Below are positions 27,465-64,000 of a stretch of 64,000 bases of DNA, piece after piece. Source of the stretch: Apostichopus japonicus. Taxonomy: Eukaryota; Echinodermata; Holothuroidea; Aspidochirotida; Stichopodidae. The notes beneath the pieces are model-generated. The model did no database searches. It worked only from the letters and a program-made list of their open reading frames with translations, and had not been told where the DNA came from. The DNA lies in assembly GCF_037975245.1 (NCBI RefSeq), contig NC_092568.1, positions 20,057,001-20,121,000 of the forward strand, in the 5' to 3' direction. Each line of letters begins with the position of its first letter. Position 1 is the stretch's first letter. A program made the position numbers and the translations under genes.

Positions 27465-27851
27465 ATGCGGTGTTTGATGCTGATGATTCAAGTTCAATTC
27501 TTGTTGCATACGAGTCGGAAAGTTACCAGCCTTGATGTTACGACAGATGTCACCCCCGATCTCGTATCTCGGACAGCTGTACCTGGAACAGCTTTTCCTG
27601 GAACCACGGAAGAATGGTCAACTACTCCTAACGACACCACAGAGGCATCATCGGCAGTTAGTCAGACGACAACCAATCAGGAGAGTCCATCCGATAGGAT
27701 CCCTCTCTACATCGCTGGGTTGTTTTCCCTGGATGGAAATTTAGATGCTTCTGGCGTTTATGTCGGATCCAGTTTGGCGCTCAAGCATGTCAATCAAAAT
27801 CCAGACGTTTTACCGGGTTATGAACTCATAATGACGTTGTCTAATTCTAAG
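27465..27851 (+). CDS. Receptor exon 1: signal peptide, stalk, start of Venus-flytrap domain
   Basis: 129 codons, donor AAG|GTTAGT, phase 0. A hydrophobic start (MRCLMLMIQVQFLL) is followed by about 55 residues dominated by Thr, Ser and Pro, likely O-glycosylated, then the first strand and helix of the flytrap fold. At the place of the GABA-contacting Trp of GABBR1 (GGWPGG) the sequence is GNLDASG. Confidence 0.85.
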
Positions 27852-32272: not shown

Positions 32273-35200
32273 CCAAAATGTTGGGAAATCAATATGTTTG
32301 GGCTGTTTTTATAGCAAAACTAATGTTTTCAAATAGAATGGCAAGAAAGTATGAATACATTAGGAGCCTGTATGGATTGTCACGCTGATTGTGTTGGATT
32401 CTTTGTTTTCATTTGAGATTCTCGCCGGCTAAAACGTTTCACATTGATTTTACACAGTGCACTGACGGGGTGGCCATTCAAAAGTTCTTTGAACAGATAT
32501 TCCAAGCACCGCAGAAGATACTAGTGGTAGGGCCAGCATGCTCACTATCGGCGCAGGCTATTGCCAGTACAGCACATTTCTGGAATCTCAATGTGGTAAA
32601 GTATACTGAACATATAAAGCAAGAAGGAATCTGTGTAAGGCTGTCATTAAAAAGCCTTGTTAATTGTAGAAAGTAAATCATGTATTTGTGGCAATATTAT
32701 ATTGTTCTGGAGCTGAATAAATGCCAAAGATTTCAAATCTAGGTATCAGTTTTGGTTTTATAACTAGCTTTAGTTTTTTACATATTCCGGCCTACGTTTA
32801 AATTAAAAGTATAGCATGCAAACTCCACGGTCAGTATTAACCTAGCTTTTCTGATGGAGATACCAGGTCTTTACATTTTCATAGCCACTGCAGCAAAAGA
32901 CTAATTTTGCTTGATTTGATTTCAAAATGATATCATTGTGTCAAAAGGTTGGAAAAGTACTGTTTTTGTCATTATTCCTGACAATTTTTAGACATTTTTG
33001 AATAGCTATGAGGATATACTTGCTGTTGGTAAAGTATCAGTTTTAATGTATTGACTATGAGGCTCCGTTTACATAAGAAGGTGAGCCTGACTGTGTCAAA
33101 GCCAACGCTCTGTCATAAATATGTAATTTCATTTTCCATGCCGTTTCTTCTAGTAAGGGAATGCCAACTTCTTGTTCAGTGATTTGTGAGGGGGGGGGGG
33201 GTTCAAAATAATTTAATGCTGCACATAGTGTATAGGGTCTGATGACTGTAATGTAAGCACAGCCTAAATGCTAATATCCTTGTTTCAATAACAGCAGTGT
33301 TAATTATACTGCTGAAAATTAGATCACTGCTACAGTTGTTCTCATTATTCCAGACATTTTTATACTAAATGGTAATATGATTGTCAGTAATATATGAATA
33401 TGACTATAATGATTTGTAATATGGGAAATAATCCCAATAATTTTTTTTTTCTCTTTGTTTTGAGGAAAACTTAATATGAAGACAAAGAATGTAACTGAAG
33501 TTTGTAAGCAATAGTTGAGTTTAACAATACATAACAATTGACAGTGATTTTGAATGCCAAAAAACCCCCACAAAATCTGCATGATTATTGGTTGCCATTT
33601 AGGCATAGTGTCCTGTTTGACAAATGTACACTCTACGGTGTATATTAGCTTAAACGCATATCTGGAGCCTTAAATACCCTCTGCCATGGATTCGACATAG
33701 AGAAAAGACAAATTTCACACTCTTTTTGTAAAATGAGTATTACTCCTTTAGTATAGCCTTAACATGCACTACTATGTACCACCATCACACTATGTCAGTG
33801 CCTATACTGTTAATATTCTCCATCCCCCCCCCCAAATATCACTTACAAGAAATGCTAATTTCTCGTCTTTTCAGATGTCTCCGACCGCCTCTTCTCCTGC
33901 ACTCTCAAACCGGAAGCGGTATCCGACCTTTTTCCGGATCATACCTCCGGAGACTTTGCTGAACCCTCCATTTGTACGCTTAATGAGGCACTACAACTGG
34001 AGTAGAGTGGCTACTATACATCAAAAGGATGAGCTGTTTGCACTAGTCAGTAGTATAATGGATAGTTTAGTTTTAAGTACATAGATATAGTGTCATCTGT
34101 CAGAGCTGGCCGTTCATCTTTGAATGGTCAAGTAATAAAACTAAATTTTGACAATTTTCCATCCAGTTGTCACTTTGTTAACATACTTCAATCTATCACA
34201 TAAGACACAGAGGCAGGTCCGGCTACTGTGTTGATTGCTCAAGAGAGTCTTTAATTGTCCGACATTACAGACCATAACTGCCATTTGATCGTTTTAGATG
34301 TGTACACACATATCTGAATACTTGTATATGTATCTATTATTTATACACCCAGTTTGGAATCTTTTAAAATCTTTATATATACTGTATCGTCATGCCATGA
34401 GTCAGAGCACTCGTACATACGTTATACGAGCGATATGAATTTTCCGTTTCTACTGCATAACGGATAGGAACCCTTCGTACTGTCAGACTTGTGTCAGTAT
34501 GAGTGCTTTCAAGCATCCAATGAGAGGACAGTATAGAGTGGTAAGAGCATTAGAAAATTCTCCCAACTGGCTGAATTTTAAGCAATTGATGCAACCATTT
34601 GGATTGTGAGTGATTTTGTAGAAACTTGAAGAGCATGAATTTTGGAAAAATTAGTTAAGAAAAAAAATTCCAACCTTCATTAAGATTTCAGCCCATGATT
34701 TGTGTTCTTTGGGGCCACAATATTGGACCCTTGGTTGTAGAGATTAGTGCCCATACCCTTGTGGGTCATGCATTAGGTTAATAAGAAAAACAAAAGAAAG
34801 GGAAAGAATGTAATGTTTGCTTCCAGAAACAAGAAGGGGCGATAGAAGTGTTGTTTAATATGCAGAAACAACAAATATTCTCTAGCTTATCTTATCTCAT
34901 CTCAGACTCACCAATGGCATGAGCTTATAATTTAAAATTGGACCGGTCAATTTGATATTGGGTATTTGTAACCTCCTTTGGATGTTAATTATCTAGAAAT
35001 CTTCTATACATATATGGCAAAGAAATCCCTTTGTGAATACTAATTACAGGTTATTAGACATTAAATTGGGATACAACTCAATAAGCAGGTACAAAACACG
35101 TACCATGATTAAAACATGCATTATGGTGCCATACAGGTCAAGAAATACTACAATTGGTAAGAAATGCTTTTAATTCATTAATAACCTGATCTAATTATGT

Positions 35201-36705: not shown

Positions 36706-39700
36706 CACAGTCATTGACTTACAATGCTGCATGATACCATTACATATCTTATTTTGTCATATCCAGAGCATTGATGACCTTTTGACCCGGCTGAGAGATT
36801 GCAACATCACAGTGATATCATCAGAGAGTTTTGATGAAAATCCCAAAAATCAAGTTGAAAATCTAAAGGTAATTATATAAGTATCTGCTGTCCGCAAGTT
36901 ACACATTGAAGTGTGGGTCTGTTAATTACAGAGTGGCAATAAACATGAGTACTCATGCGGTTGGGCCTATACAGCTGTCATGTGTGGAGTACGTACCAGC
37001 TAGAGAGTAGCCGTCATTTTCATGGATATTCGCCCATAGTGAGGTATACCTTCAAGGTGTTACAACTGCTGTCGCACAGTTCATCTTGAAGAAAATTCTG
37101 AATCAATTAAAAATCATCTGAACTTAGATTTGCAAGGTTTTCAAAGACTGGACCGTATGGGAAAGCAACTTAAAGGAGATTAGAGGGAACGGCCAGTGGG
37201 GGATCGAGGTATGCATATTATTTGTAACTGATCAATGTGCATTTGATGTGAGCATTTAGGAATGAAGAAATATCTGCATCAAGAGAGCCAATAGGCAAAG
37301 TCTAGGTATAAGCTGAGATGTGGAATCAACAGCTCAGGAATAACAAACCCCATTCAGTGAAGGGCTGTCTTGCATTTATCAACTGAAACAGTTTCGTAAT
37401 GCTCAAGAATTTAGAACAGTCGACCGAAGCATACTCGAGATTGTCTTATAAAGACTTTGGTTATTGTTCTCTTTCTTATCTTTCATAGAAACAAGACGCA
37501 AAAATTATTGTTGTTAGTATGTATGAATGGAACATACGAAGAGTTATTTGCGAGGTAAGTTATTTGCGAGGTATGTCTTTTGTCAATCAGAAAATAAAAA
37601 TAAATAAGATTAAACAAGGCCATGAGTTTAATATCATCAATTATAATTATAGAGGGTTATTCTACTTTAATATAAAAAAGACCTAAATCTAATGTATACT
37701 GACTTAATTGTTCTAGAATTCATGACAAAAACCTTTTTCTTTAAGAAAAAAATTGGGTCTATATTTTGCACAATTACTGTCAGAAATACCAATTTGATAT
37801 AATTTGTTTTGATATTGAAAGCCAGTAAAAATTGTCAGGGGTCTCAGATAGACACAGTTCAGGAACACATAATGAGGTCTATAAACTTTGAACCCTATAA
37901 CTTTGCTAGAATCTATTGTTTAAAACTAGGAAATATTTATACCCCATAATTTCATTATTTTTGCGTTGTGTTATATTGTAAAGGTTTTAAAGACCTGGTT
38001 TCACAGCATAATTATTATAAATAAAATAAAAAAATTATCAGCACTAACCGACATTTTTCTTTCACCTTAAAATTTATAGAATTAAACTCCACCCCCACGC
38101 CCAAATCTGCACTATAAAATCTTGCCACATTCGTCTATATTTATATTCAGCTGTGTTTAGTTTGTTGTATTTGCTACACGTACAGGCCTTCAAACTGGGT
38201 ATGTATGGCGAGGGATATATGTGGTTAATCCCTGGATGGTATAACAAGGACTGGTACAAGGAAGAACCGGACAGTGGTATCGACTGCACCGTTGGAGAGA
38301 TCTCCTTATTCATCGAGTCAACCATGTACATATCAACTCAAGAGAGATTACTTGGAAAAGAGGATACAGTGACTGTAGCTGGAATTGTGAGTTGTTTCAA
38401 TTTCCCGATTTTTTTTCTCCTTCCTATCAAAAGAAAGGAAAATTAGTGTTGGTCGAATCTAAAGTGAAACATTGGTGGTTTGTAGTTTGATTCAATTATG
38501 GTGCTTCTTTGTGGTTTTTATTACTTGGCTCCTGCTGAGGTATTATTGATCATTCTTGGAAACGATTCAATGGATCTATTTAATGAAAGCACGTTGGAGA
38601 CACACAGAGGGGATTCGATACCTTTCTTTTGATAAACTTTCTAAAAATGATCTTCCTCCGAAATTCTCCCTTTTTTTTTCTTCTACCCTAAACATCGGTT
38701 TTCTGCAGGGGTATCTTCTTGCTCGTTCACTGTATGCATTATACCATCTCACACTGGACAGCTCCCCCCCCCCCCAATTTACCAATGGTATAGCCTACTC
38801 TCATTTTCAAATGGCTCATTGGAAACTAAAGAGCAGCTGGAAAGGAGGGATGGGACGAGACAATTATGATAATTCTCTTCTAGCCTAAGTTTTTAATACC
38901 AGACAAACATGCAGTCAACTCATTAAGCATCATAGCTAGTTAACAATAGTAATGTTATAGGGTAGTGTTATAGGTCATATATGTTATGGTTATTTTTTTT
39001 TGTGGGGGTAGTACTTTTATAGGTGTTATGGTTATCTATTTTCTTTGATGGGAGTACTCTATTAGATTAAGCTCAAAAGGGTTTCTTAGTTTACTTCCTT
39101 TCACAGTTTTTACTTATTTGCAGTTATATTGTCTTGTTCATCTTGTTATACTATGTGATGAAACAAATAAAATAAATAATTAGTCACTTTTTAGATGATA
39201 ACATTCTCTGTCTCATCTTTCCTTTCTTTTAATTTTGCTCTTTTTCAGACCCCAGCCGAGTACACATCTCAATTATGGGAACATTTTAGTCTTCGAGAAG
39301 ATGAATTTCAAAACTATACGATGATCCCGCAAGCTTCGTACGGTTACGATGCCATTTGGGCAGTGGCCCTCGCTCTGAACCGATCAGTAGAAGTCCTGAA
39401 AGCAAAAGTGTTTTCAAACGGTCAGCAAAGGAGGTTGGAACAATTCAGTCATGGGGACAACGAAATGTTTGATGTGATCTTTGATGCCCTGGGATCTGTC
39501 GACTTTGAAGGTGTTTCGGTAAAGATCTCATGGCTATTTTATCCTTATACTGTTTTGAACAGTTTGAACAGTGAGAATACTAAGACAGAGATAACAAGTT
39601 GGTAATTATCTCAAATCAACGCAATTAACAGTAGGCTATGTTTATAGCTGCTGGAATGTCTTGCCCATTTTCTTTCATGAATGTGAAGATTGGTAGACTT

Positions 39701-42700
39701 TAGTAGTAGTAGTAGTAGTAGAAACATGGTGATGTATGTTTCTATGACCAACAATAATGTTCGAGACTTTCCAGATGGAAAACAAATAAAAATGGAAATT
39801 TCTGTTTGTGTAAATTTCCATAAAACCAGATGAAAACATTGCAAGCAGTTCTCAGGCAGTGTTTATTAGAGCCTTTCAGTTTGGTTTGCATGCTAACGAT
39901 CTCTGAAAACAAGGTTTGGTTATTTTAATGAATGCTCCATAAAATAATGAGTACTTTCATTTTATTGTCACTTTTAAGTTCAGTATGTGGTATAAGTTAA
40001 TACCTGGAGAGGAACCCTGATAATAGAGACAAAGCAAAGCTCTGTGAGATAAATGCTGAGAAAGCAATGTATTAAATTATTGGGGATATATACCTGCTAA
40101 ATGCAATAAACTGTAATGTGACATTGCTCTAATAGGCTCACTAATTTCAACATGCTTGTGAACATTTTTTGCAGTAAAGCTGTTTGAGAATTTAATTATA
40201 TACTCTGTGCAATATGCAGCCCCTTTTCAATTCTGTGTTAGACTTTTCCAATCTTTTCTTCCATAAAATGATCTCAAATATACATTCCCTTTAGTAATAT
40301 GTCACAGTAAACAATATCCCATGATATTTTCCATCAATTTACAGTTTACAATATATATCCTTTATTAATATCCCTCTTCACCATATCAACTTTTATATGC
40401 TGTCACTGTTTATTTTTTTACTCACTTCATTTAATTCATGCCTTCACAAGTTCTGATGATCAATATCCATCCATCCTGTCACACATTGTGATATCCTCTT
40501 GATGTGTCACACCTTCCAATAATCTTCCCTAAAGCTTCAAACGTTGCTCTCACAGTTGCCAGTATCCCCCTGGTATAAATTGATCCTTTCTTTGAAAGTC
40601 AGCAATGTCTTTATTGTTTCATTTTCAAACCTGTTAAGAGAAGACAACTCATCCCATTCTATTGTTCATCCTGTCGCAGTTTACAACATCCCCAATAAAC
40701 AGAACCTCCTTCACCAGATCTCCTAATGCTGTCACTGTTTATGTGACCCTTCAATTATCCATGCTGTGACACACCTTTCTTTTCAGCATCCTTTCTGTCA
40801 GAGGTAGTGATTTCTCATTTGTTATCCACCCTAGCTGTCACATTTTATCGTATAACCCCGTTTGTTGATTATGCAGGGACCTGTCAGTTTCAGTGGAAGT
40901 GATCGGATTGGCGTCATGAAGATAGAACAACTTCAAGGTAAATCCAAATTTCTGTTTGTTTACACAAATAAATTCCATAACTGTAGAGACTTATTTGTTT
41001 GTTTTAATATGTATTTTCTTAGAGTACCTTGGAACAAACAAGAAATTTGATATTTAATTTCATTGGCCAGCTGGTGATAGGAAAGATGGACATCCATTAT
41101 TGCTTATAAAAAAAATTTAACAAAATGCACAAGAAATGTGTTAATAGAATGAAATATTGTTACATAAAAGCAGCCATCCAAATTATAGGAAACATTTAGG
41201 TTTTCAAAATGGAAAATCAAATTTTAGTATCAAAGTTAAACTAAAGTTTTTACATTAACAATAAATATGAAATGAACAATTAAACTCAGACACGTAGATT
41301 CCAAAATTATTACTGAAAGCAGAAAAAAGGACAGAAAGAAAAAACGAATCAATTTCTCTTGACCTGCAAAATAAATGCCATGGACTTAAGAGAGAGATAA
41401 CCCACATAAATTACAATCTGGCAAATAATATGCAATCTTGAACTGCTAACAGTGAAACTGTTGCAACATGCTAGGGTGCTATGTATAAAAAGCAGAAAGT
41501 CAATTTGCCATGTCAAAACAAACACAGGAAATTGAAAAAATGTGATTTTGAAAGTTATTGTAAATTTAATGAAGGTACTTGTTCCTGATTTGTCACTTTT
41601 TCATTCTTTTTGGCCATATCTATTTCGTCAATTAAGTGACAGGCTTTGTTTTAGAGGATTGTATTGAAGGATGGTAATATTGTGACAAGTGAATCAATTA
41701 ATTGCAGAGAACTTTTTGAAAGTATGTATCCTTCAGTTCAAAGTTCATTAGTATTGCAACCAAATATGTTAGAAAGTTAAAATAATGGTCACGACTCTTT
41801 TTCATATGACTTCGAACGACCCATTATTTCCACCATCGAAGCATTTCCCTCATTAATAAGATCGTTCCTTCAACCTCACTTCTCAGGTGGTTGCCCCGGA
41901 GACTGGACACACCGAGGTCGATACTGCTATCTGTTTCTGTCGTCTGAACTAACCTGGGATGAAGCGGTCTCCTCTTGCAGCGATCTTGGCGGTTTCCTTC
42001 TCAGCATCTCGTCTGAGGAGGAAAGTCTATCGTTAAAGGAATTAATCACAGAACAAGATCTAGAAGATGGAAACCGATGGTGAATGAACCTGATAATTTC
42101 ATTTATGATTATTGCTGTAGGACTAGAGTCGATACTCACAACTCTTTCCAAGTTCCCTTTATTAAAGTATGTCGTACAGTTACATCAGTTCTTGAGCTTG
42201 ACAGTTTTTTATCCCTGTGTAAGTTAATGTGGTGTTAAAACCTCAATCTGTGGATATCCAGCGATATTAAAATCAACCTAACAAATTTTTCTCAAAAATT
42301 CGGTATTTCAATTAGGTAGGAATGGATTAGACTGAGAAGGCCAATGATTATTTTGAATGTCATCTGTAGGTTCTTTTTGATCCTATGGTGAATACGGATG
42401 GGGATTGGATGGGGGAGGGGGGGATGCATAGAGGGTTGATGGACAGCTTTCTCCTAGTTTAGTTCCTTTCAAGTTCACTAATAATATTAATAATAATAAT
42501 ATTATGTGATACCTTGAGGTGGATATCTCTAAGAAGACTGCCCTCCGGGGATTTGCGCTGGTCCGATGGTCTGGAAGAATCGGTTATGTGGATACCTCCA
42601 AACGGAGACAGCCCGATAGATGCCGGTGATGGCCCGTGCTTCATCCTGGACTCGAGTGTGAACGTTCGGTATTCCGTCCCATGCCGCAGAAGGCATTCTG

Positions 42701-45700
42701 TTATTTGCAAACAGTTTGCAGGTGAGTTTAACCAAGTCATTTGTTATAGAAATATATCAACCATCACATCACAATAACGATCATAATATCAATCATTGTC
42801 ATCATGCCAAACAATCGAGACTTTTCAGGGTCGGGTTGATTTAAATCACACTGAATTGAGTCATTTGATTTTGCTTAAAAAAAATTTCTGACTTTATGTA
42901 TGTTTCAGTTTCCTTTATTCCAGTATATATAGCATATAATACAATTTATAAATAGGAGAGTATAAAAAGTTATGATACAAAAATTACAATAAAAACGAAA
43001 GCAATTACAGACATTTAAATGGTAAGTAACACAACGTAGTTGTTCTTGAAAAAAATTTAAACTAAATCGAAAGGAAACAAACTTTGCTATAAAACCAACT
43101 TCGTGAAATGGTTCAATAATAGTAGATTGACAGGACCCACCAGACGGAGGACTTGACTCAACCGAACAACAACAAAAAATGTCTAAAAAGACAGTATTCA
43201 TACCAAACATGATAATGGGATTGAGCACCACATTTATGGTTACCGTATGAATTGATGTAATTTTGGTATTGAAATGCATTGCAAGTAGTACCTGCTTGGC
43301 TAAAAGTTACATGCTTTAGAATGTAATCATGAACAGGAAGCAAGTGGTACATTTATTCATGTATCCATGTCAAACATTGCATGGAATTAAAAAACAATAA
43401 AGAAAATGATATGCATATTAATAAAAAATTATTGAATTCAAATAAATCTGACTTATTTAAATTTGCATTTTTTTTTATTAAATTGCCAACCCTGTGATTT
43501 TCTGTACATCATATGGGTCAAAACAATAAATACAGAAACACAATTGAATCTAGATTTAGTATTACAGTGGCTTTGACTGACATAAATCAACCCCCCCTCC
43601 CGCCCTCACCCAAGTGCACAATATGATTGAATCTCCACCAACCAGTGGATGGATGTAGCCCAGTCTGTCTATTACACGACCTTTGATCCAGAAGCCACAG
43701 GGGATCCTATCCCAGCAAACATCATCACCACATGACCAACACTTTTGTAATTATCTGCGATTAAGAAACAATATCATCAAGTGAAATATGAACCAAATTT
43801 TATACCTCCCTCTGTTTATCTCCTACCTCTCCTCTTCCCCTGTTGCTTTCTTCTCTCCATCCCTTCTACTAATCCCCTTACATCTATCTCTTTGTGTTCA
43901 CGGTGCTCATTAACCTGTCTGTATTCTGAGTGTGTTTTTGTTTCTTCTGTTAATGTTACTTGTTATTCAGCCTCTGAAGAAGATCCTGCTAGGATCGAAA
44001 TGTCAGACCAACTTACTTTTACACATTCTATTACACAGGCTCTCTAGTGGATAAGCAGTTTGCTAACAGTTTTATTTTATTTTTATTTATAATAAGAACA
44101 GAGAACTAATTTACAGCATCCAGTGATCACCATTCAACTTCTTTTGTCTTCTTTTTCTTTTCTTTTATTTTTTGTGTTCCCATGTCCACAGAATTTTTGG
44201 AAGTTACAGTAGCCGAGCATGATCTAGCCAAGGATGAGATTGAATGGTTCAGTGATATTATATGGCCAGGTATTAAACATTCATTGAATTATGCCCGACT
44301 GCAGAAAGCAACGTTTCTTGAAATTTGAAGCAGCTTCGTTGGTACATTTTTGGCATAATTATGTCGGTGATACTAAACTGATATAACAATTTACAGTTCA
44401 TTAGATGGATTTAGTGAACAGTGATTTCCTTAAAGGAAGAAAGCCTGATGGTTTAAGCAAGGTCTGTAGGCAGAATTTTAGTCTTGATATGTCAAAACAC
44501 CATGCAGAAAACTTTTAAATGCTAGTATAAATGTTTTCAAAACCTATTCCGTTTTTCAAGACATGCAAAATCTCTGGAATGCTCTTTGAAAGGCTGAATT
44601 GATGATCAAGTCAGCTTGTCAATTCTTATAACTTAATAAAAACGTTTTCATTTAGCTTCATATGAACTTGAAGAACACAGTACCATTGGATGGCATTCAA
44701 CACCATTTGTCCTTTGACAAATTGTATTAATTTATTGTAAACACATAATCTGAGGTCTTAGAAGTCTTGTGTATTTTACTATTGAGTTTCAAGTTGTGTT
44801 GCATCTGCGAAAATTGTCTTTAATATATTCTATGTGTTGGATATATAGCAGTCCAACAACTTTAAGTAAGCCTCAGGTGTTTAAAGGGTTATTTCTCCAA
44901 AATTAAAGGCCATAGGGAACCCAACATCATAGGCTGCTAGCAGCCAGTGTTGTTTAAGAGTTTAACTTTATGCTTTACTTATTTAAAAGAAATTCTTTTG
45001 TATTTGATTGATACTGATATTGGGCAACAAACTTCCTGAGTTAGTATTCAAAACAAGAAAAAATTAATGTCTTAGACTCATTAATTGCAGTCACATCTTG
45101 AACAATAATTGGTAGTTTTGGTAACCCAAAAAAAGATGGTAAATAAAATAAGTTCGCTTTGAAATAGCTTTAATTCTAAAATATATTTTAAGAATTCTAT
45201 TATACCACATCAGTTGTAGATATAATATACAAATTGCTTACAGTGCCCCTAAAACATGCTAGAAAATCAATCAAATAACGCTCACGACAAATTTAAACTT
45301 TCAACAAGAATTTTTTTACTGTCACCATCAAAGGGTATTCCCTCTTTGAGACATCTTATCCTTAAAACATGAACATTTCTAATTTTTTTTTTATCAGTGA
45401 TTTTTGTGAACAATTGGAACCTCCCAAAATTAATTAACTTTAAAGATCTTTAACAATTTGATCCATCACATTTGCTTTTTCTTTTTTAATCTTCATGTAA
45501 TAAGCACCTGTTACCGCTCTTAAGTTTACTTAAGCCCCCCATCTTTTCATTTGTTCTTTTGTAAATTAATTTGCTTTCTTTGTAAAGCGCCTTGAGCAGT
45601 GACTTTTGACTACTGATTTGGCGCTATATAAGTCTCATTTATTATGATTATTATTATTATTATTGTAATTAATTTCAGGGGGTGCCGTTCCATTAGATCA

Positions 45701-48700
45701 TACACCACAGGTCATCTTCACGACAGTGGAGATTTATGAGGGAGTCCCGTTCTTTGTCTACATTATTAGCTGCTGTCTCGCTGGGCTTGGTATGATACTG
45801 GCAGTCGTTTGTCTGGTATTTAATATTTATCACAGAAACCAAAGGTAATCCTCTCATTAATTATTCAATTTCTCTTGTTGTGAATATAATCTTAAACTGA
45901 AAGTTACATTGCAAAACAAGAAAGATCTGTCTTAATTTGCATCGAGGTTTATTTCAACCATTTCGTTTCTCATTTATCTACGTTAATTCCTTGTCTTTAT
46001 GGTTTAATCTTTAATTAATGTATCTAGAGTGCAAAAACAATGATCTTCAACAAAATTGAAAAAAAAAAAAACAATGATTTTAATCATCGTCATTCATTTT
46101 CATCTAAATAGTATAGTGTATCTTTTGTGCTGGTGTGACAATATAATGTCATACTCTTCAGCTTAACATAAAAATCTCACAAAACTGTTACTGGGCTGGC
46201 ATGTGACTTTGGTATTAAGAAAATTGCTTGTCCAGTACTTATATATTGCAGATATGTTGCCATGGTAAATCATATGATTTTTCACAAACATAATTGATCT
46301 GGTTACCTTTTAAAGGCAAGGGGATGGTGGGGAGGGAGGGGGGAGGGTCGTGAGGCATGCCTTGTCTTTCACTGCTCAAATTATAACTGATAAACTGCAA
46401 CTGCAATATTTAAATTATGTCTAGCCTAAATTACTTATTAAGCTGTGAATTCATTTTTGTTCAATTATTACATAAGTACATTACTGATTGCAGCAGCTTT
46501 GGGCGAGAAGAAATACTTAAAAGAGTTGAACATTACAGTACATTGCAAAGATCCTAGAGCTGATCATTTTAGTTGTCTGCTTTATTCTCCAGATTCATCA
46601 AACTGTCCAGTCCGAACCTGAACAGCCTCATCATCTTTGGATGTATCATGATATATGCGTCAACTTGTCTCGTCGGTTGGGAAGACCCAAGTATAAACCA
46701 AGCCATCTTTCTTAAATTTTGCCAGGTGAAAATGTTTGATTTACCAAAATTTTTATATGACAAGTGCTACAATCTGATGCATCCATACTCGACCTTTAAA
46801 AGAAAGATGAGATATACCTGGAAAATGTAAAATTGTTACTTTGGTTCACCTTACTTGCACCAGGAATGTTGGAAAGTAGGTATTTAAGGGAAAGGTTTAC
46901 AAACCAAAGAAACAAAATAGTAAATTAAATGTTCGAGACACAACATATATTTCTTCTTCTGAAATTGCACTAAATGGTGTATAATGCACTATTATGAAGC
47001 TTATAATTGTAAGTAAGTAAAACTTTATATCTCCAAAAAGGAAATTTGTGTACTCTCACTACAAAACAATAAGACGAATATCATATGTAAATATTTAATA
47101 TGTAAAAATGTGGGTATATTCAGATAATATTATAGAAAGGATAAGAAAAATAAACGTAACAGAGTATCATTAAAAAGCTTCATTGCACGAGGAATAAAAG
47201 AATCCCGGGGTCTTGGTTTTTAGTCCCGGAAGTCTCAGCCTACCAATGCCTCTTGTCATTTGACTGTCATGCAATAGTTGATCATGGCCTGTTCTGCTTT
47301 CTTAATAATGCTATTGATAGGATTCTTTTCTGTATTATTAACGCTACCACCCCAACAGACCAAGCAGTATCGCCAAACCCCACAAATGGTAATTGGATGA
47401 CATATTTCATATTTCTTAAATATCACATCATACGCATTTATATTGCTTACAGATTCGTGTCTGGTTCTTCTCTGTCGGGTTTGTGCTGAGCTTTGGTTCG
47501 ATGTTTAGTAAAACTTGGAGAGTACATAAAGTCGCTGCCCTCAAAAATCCCAAGCGTGTCGTAAGTTAATGCATAGAAGGTCATGTGTGTAGTTGTGTTG
47601 ACTCTCCAATATTATTTATATATATATATTTATATTTGTGTTTGTAGATATACCTTTTCATTTACCTTGATAAAGAATATTTTTGTTTATGAGGTGAAAA
47701 TATACAATGATTATGAATACAAGGTAAGCAGCCACCAGAGGTTGTGAATGTGTACTGTTAACTGTAAAAAGAAATGTTATTCTTTAAAATTGAAAAATGA
47801 TTTTGAAGTCTGTTTTCTGTTGTTGATTTTACTTCCCTGCTAAAGACACAGCAACAGAGTGACAGAAGGGGGAAAACATTAATAAAGAAGCCCAAAAAAA
47901 AATCTGCACTCAAGGTAGTCACTTAATGAGTTTAATTTGCATTGATAACCAAAAATGGATTTTGTGAATGAATAAAAATAATACATGATGTCGGTTCAAA
48001 GTTTCTTATTTTAACCTGTTAGATCATTACAGATCGCCATCTCTTTCTGATGGTGGGTGTTTTACTCCTGATAGACGTCAGTCTCCTATCAGGATGGTTC
48101 ATCTTCAATCCCATGAGAGTGGTGAAAGAGTATCTCCACTCAGAGGTAAGGAAGACCAAAAACAAGAAGAGAAAAACATGTCATGAAGAGAATTTTCGCC
48201 TTTTCAAAACTTATCAGGCCCACAGTTCTGTCATGATGAATAACCAATACTTAATACAAAATATTTACTTCACTCCTCACCTACCTGTCTCTTGTAGATA
48301 CACACTCGGATCTAACCCTAGCCTAAGGACTGGTAAAATTCTTGGACTGTGCCCCCCCCCCCCATGACCCTCTCTCTGAGGTCCCCTTACCGAAATCCCA
48401 GATCTGGGCCAGATATAAAAATCCAGATCTGGCCCAGATCTGGAATTTCAATCTGGGCCAGATCTGCTGCAGATCTGGAATTTATATCTGGCCAGATAAA
48501 AAATTGGGCAGATATAACTTGATATAAAATAAAGTTTTATATGGCCCATATAAAATTTGATCTGGTTAAATTTTATTGCATCCATATCTGGGCCAGATAA
48601 AACTTTATCTGGTTGATATAAAGAAAATCCAGATAAACTTTTATATGGCCCATATAAAATTTGATCTGGCTAAATGTTATTGCATCCATATCTGGGCCAG

Positions 48701-51700
48701 ATAAAACTTTATCTGGTTGATATAAAGAAAATCCAGATAAACTTTTATATGACCGATATAAAAAAATATATCTGGCTAAAATGTCAATCAAATAGGAAAT
48801 AAGTGGCCAAAACTGGACTAGCATTGATATTAACTTTCCAGCGCGATCAGTTATCTCTGTTCTGGTACGGAGACCCATACAGAGAGCAAGACACACACAA
48901 AATATAAACACAGCTGTGTTCTAGAACTCAACTGGATTGGAACAAAGTGGAAATATGTAATGTGCAAGCTCGTTGCTGTTACCTAATCCGACTGCTATGG
49001 TCATAAAATGACAGCTGTTCAAAAATAATACTTGAAGGTTGAGTTCTTTATTCTTCTGTGGTCCTGTAGATGTTGATACTAAATTGTGTTGTGCTATTCT
49101 TTTATTTAATATATTTGCTTTAATAAATAAGTTCCAGGAGGGCCATATATGTTCCATTCAGTATCGAAGTTCAGTCCCAAAATATATTCCTTGTTGCCAT
49201 CCGTTCCAAAAACTTCTTCCTTACTTCTGACTGTTCAGTTCACTATAGAAACCTTTGCCAATGTCCTGACATCAATAGGATATTATTTATGAATCTCCAT
49301 CACCTTTTCTTAATGTACCAATCCTTTCTGTTAAACTTCCTTCTGCTCTTTACTCCTACCATGTGGACACTAGTGTACACATAGTTCCCTTTCCTATCTC
49401 ACTCCTAGAGTATCAAAACACATATGTCCATTGTTCAAAAGTGGCCTTCACACTTAATCAACCTCTGAGTCATCCTGTTTCAAGCTAAGACCCTGTGGTT
49501 GCCTAGCAACCCAGATAGAGATAGTTATTCCCCCTTTGACTTAGTGTATACACTGTAAGTGATTTACTATTGAAATATATATGAAAAGTGCAATGTAAAT
49601 CTCTATGAAAATACACTATGTAAGAGCATACAGTCTTAAAGTTTTATCTGTCAATATAAAGTCAAGTATAACTGGATAAACATGATGTATATCCAGTTAT
49701 ACCTGACTTTATATTGACAGATAAAACTTTATCTGCATATCTGGATTGACTCTATATCCAGTTATATCTGGCTTTATATGGCCAGATAAAACTTGATCTG
49801 CATATCTGGATTGACTCTATATCCAGTCAAATCTGGCTTTATATGGCCAGATAAAACTTGATCTGCATATCTGGATTGGCTCTTTATCCAGTCATATCTG
49901 GCTTTATATGGCCAGATAAAACTTGATCTGCATATCTGGATTGACTCTATATCCAGTTATATCTGGCTTTATATGGCCAGATAAAACTTGATCTGCATAT
50001 CTGGATTGACTCTATATCCAGTTATATCTGGCTTCATATGGCCAGATAAAACTTGATCTGCATATCTGGATTGGCTCTTTATCCAGTCATATCTGGCTTT
50101 ATATGGCCAGATAAAACTTTATCTGCATATCTGGATTGACTCTATATCCAGTTATATCTGGCTTTATATGGCCAGATAAAACTTGATCTGGCCAGATTAA
50201 ACCAGATGTAAAGCCAGATCTGGCATTTCGGTAAGGGTCACTATCCTACTCCTTTCAAAATCTACCATTTCAGCAGTCTTTACAGAAAATATCTGTTCAC
50301 AGATATATTGAATTGTATCTGATATATTTCTTGCACTCTACACAATGTCTAAATGCTTAATGCAGTTGATATTTGCTATATTTCATGTTAACAATTTCGA
50401 AACTACCTCATAAAGTTTCAAACTTCCATTTGTGGTATTTCCTTCTTCTCAGGAAGATTCGGAGAATCTCTTGATTCTGACGCCTTACATTCAATATTGT
50501 ACCACCGACAATAGCCTTATCTGGCAGTGCACCCTCTATGGCTATAAGGCGCTCCTCCTAATATTTGGTGTCTTTCTGGCGTGGGAAACACGAAAGGTGA
50601 GTTTGAGTGTATTTTAGGTGTGGTTAGGGTACTAATTAGTCGCTAGAAGTGTAAGTACTTGTAGACATAATAATAAGAATAATAATAATGACAACCACAA
50701 CAATAATGCCACACTAGCATACTGCTAACCTTATACAAAGTCCCAGAAGGGCTAAAATCCAAAGCATTCACTTGCAAAAGGTCAAAGCATGAACTCTATA
50801 TAACCATAAAAAGGCTGAACAAAGCTGATGCCAGTTGCCTGACAGCAACTGATGCCCATTTAGGTGAACAATGCTAAACATAAAGAAAAATGCTTGTTTT
50901 AGCCATATAGATCCATATAAATACAAGAAGATACTCAGAATTCAACATAGACCTCTGAATCAAATCTCTATAAATGCAGTTTTGATTCAAATCGGTTCCA
51001 GATATATTAAATGCTGATTACCTGATGTATCGATTGGTGTTGCATCAACATCAGATATCAATTCATCCCTATGATGAGTCGATATTTAATTTCATAATTC
51101 CTTGTAGACTAATTGTTTTCAGAATCCATTTCTTAAATTGAAGCTCTACACTTTTCTCTTACCTGAGTATAATTACAGACTACATGATGAGAATTAGTCC
51201 ATTAGGTTGCATTTTTCAGCTCTCTTGACCTCAACTTACTGAAACTTTATCTCTCCTGCAAACAGACTGGTGAGTTTGGGAGAGTTGATTTGTTCACACC
51301 TTGCCATGTCTGCCTTGATCTGATAGTGATTTGGCTACTAGCTGTGTGATGAGTTGCATAATAGACGAATAGGCAGCTCAACTAAGGTGCGAAAAGATGG
51401 GATTAATCACTCAGCTAACCAACTGGAAAGAACCCGCAGTTCAGTACAAACGACAGGTTTTTGGATGCAACCTATAGCTAATGGAAACTTTCACGGCATG
51501 TACTAGATATAGATATGAATGAATTCAGACTGATTAGTCAGTCTGTGTGTTCCCCTACACCTCATCCTTAGTTGCTATAATGGGTGTTGTGCATGGCAGT
51601 TTAAAAACACCCTAGGGATTAGCTTCTCTCATATGTATTATCTAAGCGATAATCCTAACCCCTATTGTGATGTTTTAACTTGTTGTATTCAGGTCACCAT

Positions 51701-52880
51701 TCCAGCTCTGAACGACTCCAAGCTGATCGGTCTCTGTGTCTACAACGTGGTTTTACTGAGCGCTATAGGGGTAGGGGTTAATCTAGCCCTCACCACTGAC
51801 CCTTCGCCATCTTTCATCTTTACCTCGGCCATCCAGATATTTTGCACCTCTGTCACTTTAATCATTATTTTTATTCCAAAGGTGAGTCAGTTGTAAACAG
51901 ACTGTAGTCAGAACAGATCGCATGTTCATGTCATATATGAATGGCAACATCTCAGTGCATTATGTTAGTTGATTTTATCAATTATGGTATCATTTTGGTA
52001 TGTAGGATTTATCTCTGTGATACATGATACTCCAGGATCGTAATTATAGAGCAAGAAATCGGAACAAGCAGATATAATTTACTCAGAATCTTTAATGCTG
52101 CATTGCATAATGTAATAAACCACCTCCTCTTGTCATAGATGGTATCTGTTAACAAATACCCAGAAGGGAAACATGTGACCACGATGAAATCCGAATCGAA
52201 TTTTGAAATGTCGTCTAATGGAAACGCCGAGATGAAAGATGAAATTACGAAGCTCAGGTCTGAATTAAAACAGGTCAGAACCTTAACTTACATATTATAT
52301 ATGGTGGCATTGAAAAGTTTATATATATAAATATATATATATATATATACAAATTATTGACACAACTCACTAAATAAAATCACGGCTCATAATGTAATTT
52401 GGATTATGAACCAACAAGCACATTACACTGCTGAGTAAATCTAAGAAGAATTGAGAGAATTCTTTTGTTCGTTGGCAGCCGGGACTATTATCAATCAGTT
52501 TGTGCGTTTTTGTTTTTGTTTTTTATTTAATTTGCACCAAAAAAGAACAAGAAAAAAATTCTCTCTGACAATGATAATGTTGGAGAGTAAAAACACCATG
52601 TAGATGTTTACTATGAATAATTCTTTTAATACTGTGGCTGCCAGAACAGCTATATAGCAAGCATACTTTGAGAAGAATTTCAAATCATTAATTCCTTCTT
52701 CTGTAATGTCTTTAGTTTCAGGAGCACCCATATCACTGCAAGCACACGGGTTGCGGTCTTTGGTTGGGTCGCATAATGTGTGCCTGTGGAGACACTGTTG
52801 CAGAATCGAGATATGACCTGGAATATAAGAGCACAGAAACTCTTTCAACCGTTACCAATTTAACACCTCCGCAAGCTTGA
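27465..52880 (+). CDS. GABA-B-like class C GPCR with inserted C-type lectin domain, 20 exons
   Basis: All 20 exons join in frame (3102 bases, 1033 residues). Layout by residue: signal peptide about 1-22; Ser/Thr-rich stalk 24-78; Venus-flytrap domain about 80-462 (PLYIAGLFSLDG, DVLPGYEL, ASSPALSNRKRYPTFFR, YDAIWAVALALN, IGVMKIEQLQG); C-type lectin domain about 467-596; linker to about 645; TM1 about 647-672; then six more membrane segments to 934; a short coiled coil about 963-979; a Cys-rich tail with TGCGLW. The Cys at the top of TM3 (KFCQ) and in the second extracellular loop (YIQYC) are kept. GABA-B receptors are plasma-membrane, Gi/o-coupled dimers. Residues that contact GABA in human GABBR1 look changed, so the ligand is unknown. 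A paralogue ends at 1788. Confidence 0.9.
31770..32190 (-). mobile_element. Probable SINE, reverse
   Basis: The minus strand has a B-box-like GGTTCAAATCC (32183-32173), then a body including CGTCGGATGGGGGACGTTAC and TGGCGGTCACTGGAGCAGG. This is a GC-richer block inside an AT-rich intron. The A box is not recognisable. Confidence 0.45.
32214..32269. repeat. (TA)n microsatellite in receptor intron 1
   Basis: Pure TA repeat of about 55 bases. Confidence 0.95.
32458..32595 (+). CDS. Receptor exon 2: Venus-flytrap lobe 1
   Basis: 46 codons, phase 0 at both ends; acceptor tttacacag, donor GTG|GTAAAG. It contains KILVVGPACSLSAQAIAS and FWNLNV, matching the GCS..ST..A and MWNLIV blocks of GABA-B receptors. 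Confidence 0.9.
33875..34045 (+). CDS. Receptor exon 3: Venus-flytrap lobe 1/2 hinge
   Basis: 57 codons. SSPALSNRKRYPTFFR is nearly the GABBR1 sequence. The following THPS, whose His contacts GABA, is replaced by IIPP. The initial Met is internal. Donor CTA|GTCAGT. Confidence 0.9.
36655..36701. repeat. (TA)n microsatellite in receptor intron 3
   Basis: Pure TA repeat about 65 bases before the exon 4 acceptor. Confidence 0.95.
36767..36868 (+). CDS. Receptor exon 4: Venus-flytrap lobe 2
   Basis: 34 codons, phase 0; acceptor catatccag, donor AAG|GTAATT. SIDDLLTRLRDCNITVI corresponds to the helix and strand before the lobe-2 ligand face. Confidence 0.85.
37489..37554 (+). CDS. Receptor exon 5: Venus-flytrap lobe 2
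   Basis: 22 codons, phase 0. KQDAKIIVVSMYEWNIRRVI parallels the DARIIVGLFYE..ARKVFCE block; the Tyr is kept. Donor GAG|GTAAGT. Confidence 0.85.
38186..38386 (+). CDS. Receptor exon 6: Venus-flytrap lobe 2
   Basis: 67 codons, phase 0. AFKLGMYGEGYMWLIPGWYN then IDCTVGEI match GABA-B (KYVWFLIGWYADNW, INCTVDEM), including the Trp and the Cys. Donor ATT|GTGAGT. Confidence 0.9.
39249..39518 (+). CDS. Receptor exon 7: Venus-flytrap C-terminal part
   Basis: 90 codons, phase 0. It contains YTSQLWEHF and YGYDAIWAVALALNRSVEVL. The EAPLAYD block of GABBR1, whose Glu binds the GABA amine, reads QASYGYD here. Donor TCG|GTAAAG. Confidence 0.9.
40877..40937 (+). CDS. Receptor exon 8: end of Venus-flytrap domain
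   Basis: 61 bases, ends in phase 1. GPVSFSGSDRIGVMKIEQLQ closes the flytrap domain as in canonical GABA-B receptors. There the next residues lead through a short linker to TM1; here a lectin module follows. Confidence 0.9.
40938..42518 (+). other. Receptor introns 8 and 9
   Basis: Introns 40938-41886 and 42080-42518 around the first lectin exon. Intron 8 is AT-rich with no recognised repeat; intron 9 holds a short ATA/ATT run before exon 10. Confidence 0.6.
41887..42079 (+). CDS. Receptor exon 9: C-type lectin domain, first half
   Basis: 193 bases, phase 1 in and phase 2 out. GCPGDWTHRGRYCYLF, TWDEAVSSC and GGFLLSISSEEE are the N-terminal Cys pair, the first helix and the (L)A.I.S.EE strand of a long-form C-type lectin fold. 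Donor GATG|GTGAAT. The frame stops shortly after, so the splice is required. Confidence 0.9.
42519..42721 (+). CDS. Receptor exon 10: C-type lectin domain, second half
   Basis: 203 bases, phase 2 in and phase 1 out. WISL (for WIGL), WSDG, GPC, VPC and ICK supply the core and the last three Cys. The sugar/calcium motifs EPN/QPD and WND are absent (PPN and SVN appear instead), so calcium-dependent sugar binding is unlikely. The acceptor is pyrimidine-poor (ataccttgag). Confidence 0.88.
43790..44035 (+). mobile_element. Penelope-like element, 3' fragment in receptor intron 10
   Basis: Matches 7790-8035: the CT-rich tail, CTCATTAACCTGTCTGTATT, then the hammerhead-like terminus and AACTTACTTTTACACAT. 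It is 5'-truncated and ends about 155 bases before exon 11. Confidence 0.75.
43970..44008 (+). ncRNA. Hammerhead-like ribozyme motif, Penelope copy B
   Basis: Core CTGAAGA intact (43974-43980), extra A, stem II GATCC/GGATC, GAAA, but stem III is ATGT instead of ACGT, a CpG-type decay. Stem I is shortened by a mismatch. Confidence 0.5.
44192..44269 (+). CDS. Receptor exon 11: linker after the lectin domain
   Basis: 78 bases, phase 1 at both ends. It encodes an acidic linker (EVTVAEHDLAKDEIEWFSD) with no Cys, between lectin and membrane. Acceptor tgtccacag, donor CAG|GTATTA. Confidence 0.8.
45580..45665 (+). mobile_element. SINE 3' tail next to exon 12
   Basis: TTTGTAAAGCGCCTTGAGC and GATTTGGCGCTATATAAG, then (ATT)n: the common 3' tail of invertebrate tRNA-SINEs and L2-like elements. 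The ATT run ends about 14 bases before the exon 12 acceptor. Confidence 0.65.
45679..45844 (+). CDS. Receptor exon 12: pre-membrane linker and TM1
   Basis: 166 bases. PLDHTPQVIF (like PPADQT in GABBR1) precedes a 25-residue hydrophobic segment and the NIYHRNQR cytoplasmic edge. The acceptor lies just after a SINE ATT tail. Confidence 0.9.
46593..46725 (+). CDS. Receptor exon 13: TM2 and start of TM3
   Basis: Begins RFIKLSSPNLN, the typical ICL1 (RYIQLSQPYLN). TM2 follows, and it ends at KFCQ, whose Cys forms the TM3-loop disulfide in this class. Confidence 0.9.
47453..47560 (+). CDS. Receptor exon 14: TM3 and intracellular loop 2
   Basis: 36 codons, phase 0. VWFFSVGFVLSFGSMFSKTW matches [20 protein letters not shown] of GABBR1. 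Donor GTC|GTAAGT. Confidence 0.9.
47846..47914 (+). CDS. Receptor exon 15: basic insert in intracellular loop 2 (possible cassette)
   Basis: 69 bases, exactly 23 codons, phase 0 at both ends, acceptor ccctgctaaag and donor AAG|GTAGTC. It is very basic (KKPKKK). Skipping it restores a loop of ordinary length, so it may be optional or a false exon. Confidence 0.4.
48023..48145 (+). CDS. Receptor exon 16: TM4
   Basis: 41 codons. ITDRHLFLMVGVLLLIDVSL matches the WKLYATVGLLVGMDVLTL block; FNPMRV corresponds to the VDPL segment after TM4. Confidence 0.9.
48541..48775 (+). repeat. 104-base tandem repeat
   Basis: Blocks beginning ATGGCCCATATAAAA recur at 48541, 48645 and, diverged, at 48749. Each includes GGGCCAGATAAAACTTTATC. 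Confidence 0.9.
49655..50200 (+). repeat. 65-base tandem repeat, about eight copies
   Basis: Unit start GCCAGATAAAACTTGATCTG at 49781, 49846, 49911 and onward with an exact 65-base period. Copies differ in a few positions (TTGACTCTATA or TTGGCTCTTTA). Confidence 0.92.
50453..50596 (+). CDS. Receptor exon 17: extracellular loop 2 and TM5
   Basis: 48 codons. YIQYC gives the loop Cys, and LYGYKALLLIFGVFLAWETR is close to GABA-B TM5 (FYGYKGLLLLLGIFLAYET). Donor AAG|GTGAGT. Confidence 0.92.
50597..52138 (+). other. Receptor introns 17 and 18
   Basis: Introns 50597-51692 and 51882-52138. No repeat or coding signal was recognised. Confidence 0.6.
51693..51881 (+). CDS. Receptor exon 18: TM6 and TM7
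   Basis: 63 codons. IPALNDSKLIGLCVYNVVLL (like INDHRAVGMAIYNVAVL), then TM7 ending FIPK as in FVPK of GABA-B receptors. Confidence 0.92.
52139..52273 (+). CDS. Receptor exon 19: cytoplasmic coiled coil
   Basis: 45 codons, phase 0. KYPEGK, then EMKDEITKLRSELKQ, a coiled coil of about two heptads, much shorter than in GABBR1/2. It is the counterpart of 153-284. Confidence 0.85.
52716..52880 (+). CDS. Receptor exon 20: Cys-rich C-terminus
   Basis: Starts at 52716 or, in the same frame, 52722 (two AG acceptors six bases apart). HTGCGLW, CACG and STETLSTV are shared with 1630-1788. TGA at 52878-52880. A candidate AATAAA is at 53854-53859. Confidence 0.82.
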   Translation, partial: FQEHPYHCKHTGCGLWLGRIMCACGDTVAESRYDLEYKSTETLSTVTNLTPPQA

Positions 52881-56931: not shown

Positions 56932-57855
56932 TCACCAACTTATATCGGAATCATTGTGTTGTGGCGATGGTACTTCCGTATGGGTCCACTTTACAAAAGA
57001 ACATGGTGGGACGATGGACAAATTATCGTTCTCCGAAACCAATTTGTTCAAATCGACCCTTCTCCCGTCACATGTAACGTCAGCTTTGTAACACTGTCCC
57101 AAGTTTAAGGCGGGCAATCTCGGCAAATCAATGTTGACCAACCTTAACCGCTGACAGCCGTACAAATTCAAATAGAGAAGTCCTATCGATGGTGGGAGGT
57201 GAAATTGCGTCAGAGACAAACATCTCTCGATGCATAAATGACTAATAAAAGAACAACCCATCAACGCCATTTGCATAGTATAATTTTGTAAGGAGCATCT
57301 GTAAAGCACTAATGCCCTCACTGACGGTGCCGACACACTGAGTACACCGAGCGAGCAATCAAACAGCTTGATGTTGCCCAGCATTCTATGCGCGTGTATC
57401 GTACACGACCTCAGCGAGATCATGACGTCATTGGTGGTATTCACGATTAATGAGTCTAAGAGGTCACATTGTACATGCAAGTTTCTCAAAGATAAAACTC
57501 CACACAAAGAAATGTTTTTGAGATGGTTTGCCACAATAATGACTGACTCTAGTTGTTCTGTAATATCGCACCCCTCCGATACATGTAGATCTTCTAAGGT
57601 AGGGCAACGTACGGACAGGACGCGACTCTTAAAATCCGGTTGAATGGTAAGTTTTTGAAGACGAGGACACCAGCTTGGCTCGATGTAAGTCTCAACGGCA
57701 GAGATCGCTCCCAATACGAGGTTGGTTATTGTCGAGTTGTTCTTGAGAAAACTTTGGAATTCAGATAAACTGAGGTCTGGGCAATTTCGAAGTTCTACGG
57801 TGGATAGCCGACTGCTACGAACAGCGATTAATCGTAATGCGCCGCTACCATCAAC
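56932..57855 (-). CDS. F-box gene exon 3: C-terminal LRRs
   Basis: 307 codons plus stop. Acceptor gtctgatcag. It continues the LRR pattern (LSTVELRNCPDLSL, LKNISLCGVLSLRNL, LLYLNLYGCQRLRLV) and ends in a short non-repeat tail. Confidence 0.85.
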   Translation of the reverse strand, partial: VDGSGALRLIAVRSSRLSTVELRNCPDLSLSEFQSFLKNNSTITNLVLGAISAVETYIEPSWCPRLQKLTIQPDFKSRVLSVRCPTLEDLHVSEGCDITEQLESVIIVANHLKNISLCGVLSLRNLHVQCDLLDSLIVNTTNDVMISLRSCTIHAHRMLGNIKLFDCSLGVLSVSAPSVRALVLYRCSLQNYTMQMALMGCSFISHLCIERCLSLTQFHLPPSIGLLYLNLYGCQRLRLVNIDLPRLPALNLGQCYKADVTCDGRRVDLNKLVSENDNLSIVPPCSFVKWTHTEVPSPQHNDSDISW

Positions 57856-63033: not shown

Positions 63034-64000
63034 GACTCCACGTTACATGCATTGCTTCCTTGTTAATGGCGTCGTAATGATCTCAGTGTGCATTAGTACC
63101 CGGCTAAACTTGTCTAATTCTAGAATATCGGCCTACTCGATGGCGTGTCAACTTCAATGACATATCACACACGAGCGATCAGGATAAAAGTTGAGCTGTT
63201 TGTTCCACGTGTGTCGCTCCCACGGTGTAGGCTATAGATCTCTTGCACGTAGACATTGTAATCAGCCTACAGCATGCATGCTGCCATGACGACACGACTT
63301 TAACTCGCCATTATTTACTTGCATTGTACAAATACAAAAAAATCTAACATATGTTCGTTCTGTATAGAAAGTTTAGTTGAACTAGCCTCTTCGACCTAAC
63401 TCATTACCATCACCGCGGAATATCATGGTCTAACAGTACATCTGTAAACGCATGTCTGTATTGGCAAGCTAAACAACAAAATCTGATGATTCGCTGAGAA
63501 ACAAATGTGGCGGGGTGGGTGAGATTTGGGTGGGGGATGATTTGAGGCTTGATAGGGGTGGTATAGGGCTTGGGCATGGTTAAGGCTCTGATGGAGTGGG
63601 TGTGGGGTAGGTGATCCAGGGCGAGTGGACGGCGAGGTTGATGGCACGGGTGGCGTCGTGACTGTTAGTGGGTGGTGGGGTGGTGGGATGCAAACTTTCC
63701 CCGACTGACTGAGTAGGTGCCCGAACCTTTATGCCTTATGGAAGGATCAGAGTCGAATCATGGATTTTATAATGGAGGGGTGCTGCCATGGAGTCATTGA
63801 AACAGGTTCCCATATAGGCTTGGGGGGGGGGGGAGCTGTTGGTCTTGTAATACTTAAGACGCCAAATGGTGCGCTTATGTTAACGTGGGCCCTTACGTTC
63901 ATTTTCTCGTAGCAATGAAATCAGGCCTACTGATTGAAATTGAAATTATCCCTGAAGTATATGAAAGGTATTTAAAATGTTCTACAATACATGCTTCGAC
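63034..64000. other. Upstream region of the F-box gene
   Basis: The promoter is expected here, but no TATA box is clear. 63500-63720 is a loose GGGTGGG-type G-rich tract; 63730-63840 may be an element fragment related to 58265-58330. No gene was seen to the window end. Confidence 0.4.

Follow-up and report, generated by a model that had tools for sequence, protein, structure and literature searches.

The subject of this analysis is a predicted receptor gene within a 64,000-nucleotide stretch of the sea cucumber Apostichopus japonicus genome (contig NC_092568.1, positions 20,057,001 to 20,121,000 of the forward strand; G000:C8:20057001-20121000), referred to here as the window. Coordinates are window positions unless a contig is named; C8 denotes the contig carrying the window, and the genome searched comprised 671,581,487 bases on 35 contigs. 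Nineteen predicted plus-strand exons between positions 27465 and 52880, with AG/GT at every inner exon boundary, splice into a stop-free frame of 1010 amino acids whose predicted domain order is flytrap, C-type lectin-like domain (CTLD), linker and seven-transmembrane (7TM) domain. A Pfam scan of the spliced prediction placed 7tm_3 (1.7e-55), ANF_receptor (2.3e-52) and Lectin_C (5e-9) on one chain, the last scoring 37.3 bits against a cut-off of 22.6, and detected no Cys-rich domain (NCD3G). The scanned protein was 880 amino acids long and still had two residues where VFTb meets VFTc that have since been removed in the refined model. An earlier reading of this DNA made from its letters (hereafter the sequence-only reading) had placed flytrap, lectin and 7TM domains on one chain, and the stop-free splice and the three Pfam scores bear this out. 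At the level of gene structure, the window thus holds a genuine gene for a class C G protein-coupled receptor (GPCR) of the GABA-B type, with a CTLD in the last hairpin of its flytrap domain.

The CTLD is encoded by two exons, CT1 (41887-42079, plus strand) for the N-terminal half with Cys 1–3 and CT2 (42519-42721, plus strand) for the C-terminal half with Cys 4–6. Its 132 residues contain six Cys, which together with the Lectin_C score above cut-off marks it as a long-form CTLD. The preceding exon, VFTh (40877-40937, plus strand), encodes the strand that opens the terminal hairpin of the flytrap and ends in phase 1 (..IEQLQ|G), a junction matching that of a CTLD-less gene on contig C16. CT1 runs from phase 1 to 2 and CT2 from phase 2 to 1, so that the cassette is symmetric (1-2-1), and it is followed by exon LNK (44192-44269, plus strand, phases 1 to 1), which carries the last flytrap strand and the linker (EFLEVTVAEHD..IIWPG). 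The four exons, their phases and the six-Cys count agree with the sequence-only reading.

Alignment to human GABA-B1 with phmmer proceeded through the flytrap to IEQLQ-GG, skipped the CTLD and restarted in the next strand (HDLAKDEIEWF against YDSTKDDLSW). Because the alignment stops and restarts at these points, the CTLD is predicted to occupy the turn that connects the final two strands of the flytrap, inside the terminal hairpin. By analogy with class C structures, both strands are presumably part of one hairpin of the membrane-proximal lobe 2. The CTLD had been proposed to sit between the flytrap and the membrane domains; it does precede TM1, but it is inside the hairpin, one strand before the flytrap ends. 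The further proposal that it replaces the coupling linker does not hold, because the last strand and then the linker motif W-x-G-G-x-x-P-x-D-x-T come after the CTLD. The linker exon (EFLEVTVAEHDLAKDEIEWFSDIIWPG) is present and aligns to the canonical last flytrap strand and linker of GABA-B1, which rules out loss of the linker.

Assignment to class C and to the GABA-B type is given by ANF_receptor and 7tm_3 on one chain and by searches against PDB, in which GABBR1 and GABBR2 chains topped the lists for both the flytrap and the 7TM domain, far above the mGluRs. The best match of the flytrap was GB1, at about 254 bits for the human protein. The 7TM domain matched GABA-B2 best (248 bits; 203 bits for the top GB1 chain) and retains the GB2-shared motif ETRxVxIPALNDSK. 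GABA-B2 is the coupling subunit of the GABA-B receptor. The window protein may likewise form heterodimers and couple to Gi/o; motif conservation with GB2 is what was observed in this regard. The 7TM domain is spread over TM1 (45679-45844), TM2 (46593-46725), TM3 (47453-47560), TM4 (48023-48145), TM5 (50453-50596) and TM6-7 (51693-51881; ..PALNDSK..FIPK), followed by C-tail a (52139-52273) and the less certain C-tail b (52716-52880), which runs to a TGA stop, all on the plus strand.

The flytrap upstream of VFTh is encoded, also on the plus strand, by VFTa (27465-27851), which supplies the N-terminus with a Ser/Thr-rich stalk and the flytrap start and whose start codon is tentative, VFTb (32458-32595), with ..GPACSLS.. 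at the GABA-B1 Ser130 position, VFTc (33875-34045; ..ASSPALSNRKRYPTFFR..), VFTd (36767-36868), VFTe (37489-37554), VFTf (38186-38386) and VFTg (39249-39518). In GABA-B1, GABA is anchored at its amine end by Glu349 and His170. The ligand site listed in the available part of PMC7997371 consists of Trp65, Ser130, Gly151, Ser153, His170, Tyr250, Trp278 and Glu349, with Glu349 and His170 named there as ligand-anchoring. When these positions were compared in four genes of the family, Ser130 and Tyr250 were found in all four, Ser153 and Trp278 in three and Trp65 in two, and Gly151, His170 and Glu349 in none. The Glu349 position was occupied by Q, Q, Q and L and the His170 position by I, I, I and Y, and none of the four genes has the residue set of a GABA-binding GABA-B1 subunit. 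GABA is thus predicted to be an unlikely ligand of the flytrap, which may take another small ligand.

The window gene, the one gene seen in the sequence-only reading, is one of at least 19. Genome-wide protein searches gave flytrap, CTLD and 7TM exon matches at many C8 sites, and ten loci were read at base level: the window, seven fetched gene groups and two partly read genes, one at 3.10 Mb and the other from an array spanning 41.75-42.03 Mb. The CTLD exons of g184, g185, g187m and g188m were read by hand. In all ten loci, every one of them on C8, the order and strand of VFTh, CT1, CT2, LNK and TM1 are constant, and at each of the seven with printed splice junctions one base is left over at the end of VFTh and the acceptor of CT1 is compatible with phase 1. 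A VFTa-homologous exon is present in six of the seven fetched gene groups; VFTa to VFTd of g188m were not found within the fetched stretch. Six Cys are present in 10/10 CTLDs read, and in the seven that were aligned the fold positions, among them the core Trp, are kept. Within the array, each of the ten VFTg matches is followed 0.4–6.2 kb on by a same-strand CT1 match, and CT2 matches accompany eight of the ten pairs. Nine of the ten array genes are known by exon matches only, and the total of 19 (ten read plus these nine, all on C8) is a lower bound since only the best candidates were scored. An assembly join as the source of the fusion is ruled out by diverged copies with identical layout.

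Several features of individual family members were recorded alongside these counts. The array (C8:41736053-42026780) contains 12 TM6-7 exon matches against 10 flytrap-CTLD pairs, and two copies may be without their remaining exons, partial or decayed. In one array gene, at C8:41755290-41755795, the CT1 end is followed by two more partial copies (62–63% over ~30 residues), as if the edge of the exon had been duplicated in the intron. The minus-strand gene at C8:3.10 Mb is a lone family member with long introns containing simple repeats, and among the seven aligned CTLDs it has the longest, at 144 amino acids against 125–134. This gene was suspected of being without a CTLD when the first search gave no match, but both CTLD exons were found on reading.

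To place the origin of the fusion, CTLD-less relatives are informative. Three GABA-B-like genes on other contigs (C16, C7 and C14) were read from the flytrap across to TM1, and no CTLD was seen in any of the three; GABA-B-like matches on C22, C17, C12 and at C14:17.8 Mb lie outside the set read for CTLD absence. The C16 gene reads ..MHKQLQ|G, then a phase-1 intron, then ..DHDEVKVAEYYAVTDSLNLTDEFIWIG, with the intron at the same residue as in the window gene and empty. The C7 gene has a phase-1 acceptor at the linker exon, consistent with C16, its preceding exon not being identified, and the C14 gene has no intron at that site. As C16 holds a matching, empty phase-1 intron, the two exons most likely inserted into an intron of this phase that a GABA-B-like gene already had. 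The proposal of a symmetric, exon-shuffled module made in the sequence-only reading gains support from this relative (one of the three read) and from the phase-1 linker acceptor of C7.

Distances between CTLDs and between receptor parts were strongly correlated across ten genes (Mantel r 0.965, 0/9999 permutations as high) and across seven collapsed lineages (r 0.789, 1/5040 counting identity). FastTree trees of the CTLD and receptor parts agree in their main unrooted groups, and differ in the order inside three near-identical copies. The distances and trees fit a single insertion followed by joint inheritance, and the insertion probably happened once, with the fused gene then multiplying to at least 19 copies. 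No CTLD donor stands out, the best matches outside C8 being weak (28–44% over the whole or part).

The window gene was compared with its upstream neighbour. The proportion of nonsynonymous differences (pN) was 0.33 in the CTLD and 0.24 in the pooled exons VFTg, VFTh, LNK and TM1; for synonymous differences (pS) the values were 0.82 and 0.89. Synonymous sites are saturated in this comparison, yet the CTLD frames are open. As judged from these sequence differences, the CTLD is under purifying selection yet faster-changing than the flanking exons compared. Ratios of nonsynonymous to synonymous change (dN/dS) in the CTLDs of recent duplicates rest on one to seven synonymous changes per pair and say little.

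The ligand of the CTLD was approached through its motifs. Sugar-binding C-type lectins carry EPN or QPD together with WND at Ca2+ site 2. The window CTLD has neither EPN/QPD nor WND and so does not have the signature of Ca2+-dependent sugar binding; across the family WND is found in 0/10 CTLDs read, and EPN/QPD in the long loop in two, the recently duplicated pair g187p and g188m, both with EPN. As a control, eight other CTLD loci of the genome were inspected; seven were readable and just one of these has QPD plus WND, which makes the control a weak one. On that count, motif loss is common in the CTLDs of this animal and is not, as far as these motifs indicate, special to the receptor family. 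A Ca2+-dependent sugar ligand is predicted to be less likely because the classic Ca2+/sugar site is missing, and the CTLD may plausibly provide a second surface for sensing or docking. Searched against PDB, the CTLD was closest in sequence to the yolk sac IgY receptor, LY75/DEC-205, PLA2R, MRC-type receptors and NKG2D; similarity to these is low, and they inform on the fold family, not on the ligand.

Taken together, we favour a GABA-B-type gene with a CTLD in its last hairpin, one insertion, expansion of the fused family and a mechanism with two receptive surfaces, and give this joint reading a probability of roughly 0.78. The flytrap and the GABA-B2-like 7TM domain would operate as in GABA-B receptors, as Gi/o-coupled dimers, with a flytrap that is unsuited to GABA but may take a different small ligand. 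From its place on the membrane-proximal lobe, immediately ahead of the linker, the CTLD would act as a Ca2+-independent dock for a protein or another surface cue, and by docking it would either shift lobe 2 against the 7TM domain or set the partner or surface that the receptor meets. A more specific proposal, tentative and held with less than even confidence, is that of a subfamily with two sensors per chain, a GABA-freed flytrap and a Ca2+-independent CTLD pulling the membrane-proximal lobe, serving as a chemosensory or self/non-self repertoire of sea cucumbers; such a repertoire is suggested because there are at least 19 genes on one chromosome and the CTLD changes faster than the surrounding exons. 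Several points weigh against the joint reading. The fusion is known at the level of gene structure, inspection by eye shows no clear signal peptide at the start codon of the window gene, and the mechanism beyond the domain layout is inferred. Ser130 and Tyr250 are kept in 4/4 genes and Trp278 in 3/4, and loss of GABA binding is therefore a prediction only. The CTLD pN also lies above that of the flanking exons, both against the neighbour (0.33 against 0.24) and against g38 (0.45 against 0.29), and the faster change fits loose constraint as well.

That the CTLD is a mere spacer or dimer brace without a ligand of its own is an account we consider doubtful. Its faster change and its placement at the base of the head fit such a role; six Cys in 10/10 copies read and the kept core Trp and fold positions in the seven aligned speak for more than this, as a simpler sequence would be tolerated in a spacer. 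Much the same standing, that of a possible but unlikely account, is given to an optional cassette, with transcripts both with and without CT1 and CT2. Their joint skipping keeps the frame, the cassette being symmetric, and would give back the layout of the C16 gene and an ordinary GABA-B-like receptor. Skipping of CT1 alone shifts the frame, and purifying selection on the CTLD implies that the CTLD-inclusive form matters.

A glycan-sensing receptor, with the CTLD acting as a Ca2+-dependent sugar-binding lectin, is a poorer candidate than either and appears improbable. The fold family, the EPN pair and the weakness of the motif control leave it some room, but WND is missing from every family CTLD read and EPN/QPD from the long loop of eight of ten; the glycan cue suggested in the sequence-only reading is weakened accordingly, though motif loss is common in other CTLDs of the genome too. 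That CT1 and CT2 form a separate lectin gene nested in a receptor intron, which the sequence-only reading had named as one outcome that would undo the fusion, is by far the least probable of these accounts. The genome does have a great many CTLD exons (at least 151 Lectin_C matches), but the open frame around CT1 (41781-42083) contains no Met, the CTLD exons join the receptor exons on either side in matching phase, and the same order and strand recur at 10/10 loci read across saturated divergence; a nested gene is rejected on these grounds.

Among known systems, GABBR1 and GABBR2 resemble the window protein in the flytrap and the 7TM domain, each aligning over its length, in the linker motif and in having no Cys-rich domain; they differ in having no counterpart of its 132-residue CTLD, and the window protein in turn is without Glu349 and His170. 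GABBR1a is likewise a GABA-B receptor with added binding modules, its sushi domains, but these are N-terminal whereas the CTLD lies near the membrane-proximal end. In the available part of PMC8687355, Sushi and ANF_receptor are listed for GABA-B and Lectin_C only under a class B group. The mGluR, CaSR and T1R receptors with NCD3G also have a disulphide-rich module close to the joint of flytrap and 7TM domain (PMC12716839, in part), but there the Cys-rich domain follows the flytrap, whereas the window CTLD lies inside the last hairpin and scores as Lectin_C, not NCD3G. Placozoan and amphioxus adhesion GPCRs carry a CTLD as well, but are of the Secretin/Adhesion family and not class C receptors with a flytrap; CTLD-bearing GPCRs are described only in the adhesion class in the sections available of PMC6321704. 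Venus kinase receptors and Hydra Sweet Tooth join a flytrap or a CTLD to another signalling domain, but they are tyrosine kinase receptors and, in the partial sources at hand, are not described as flytrap, CTLD and 7TM together.

Animal class C receptors are presented in PMC12716839 (available in part) as architecturally constrained, with GABA-B as the flytrap alone, and the word 'lectin' is absent from its main text. A CTLD within the last flytrap hairpin departs from that pattern. An earlier A. japonicus assembly gave five GABA receptors (PMC7042368, main text, where 'lectin' is likewise absent), and 'GABA' is absent from the main text of PMC13228809, which deals with the gene families of a different sea cucumber. 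No flytrap-CTLD-7TM protein was found in one open-access library among the matches listed, seen mostly by title and start of abstract, subscription papers and preprints being outside its scope; this is not proof of novelty. With the empty intron of the C16 relative, the birth of the fusion can be read from sequence. Should the CTLD gate the receptor, nature would here supply a case of a class C GPCR driven through lobe 2, and with it a route to the cues used by the sea cucumber, an animal said in PMC7042368 to rely on chemical sensing. The family may sense something other than GABA.

Downstream of the receptor gene, on the minus strand at 56932-63042, lies sequence encoding an F-box protein (F-box-like, 5.9e-11, at 62101-63042) with leucine-rich repeat models below cut-off at 56932-57900 and 58753-59175; the three stretches may belong to one gene or to more. 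Repeats were also observed inside the receptor gene. A 16-base repeat, AGTTATTTGCGAGGTA, at 37542-37582 spans the VFTe donor, so that the donor sequence is present twice. The TM4-TM5 intron holds a tandem array with a 65-base unit (7.7 copies, 94% matches) at 49688-50190, and at 48393-48767 shorter related repeats rich in CCAGATA.

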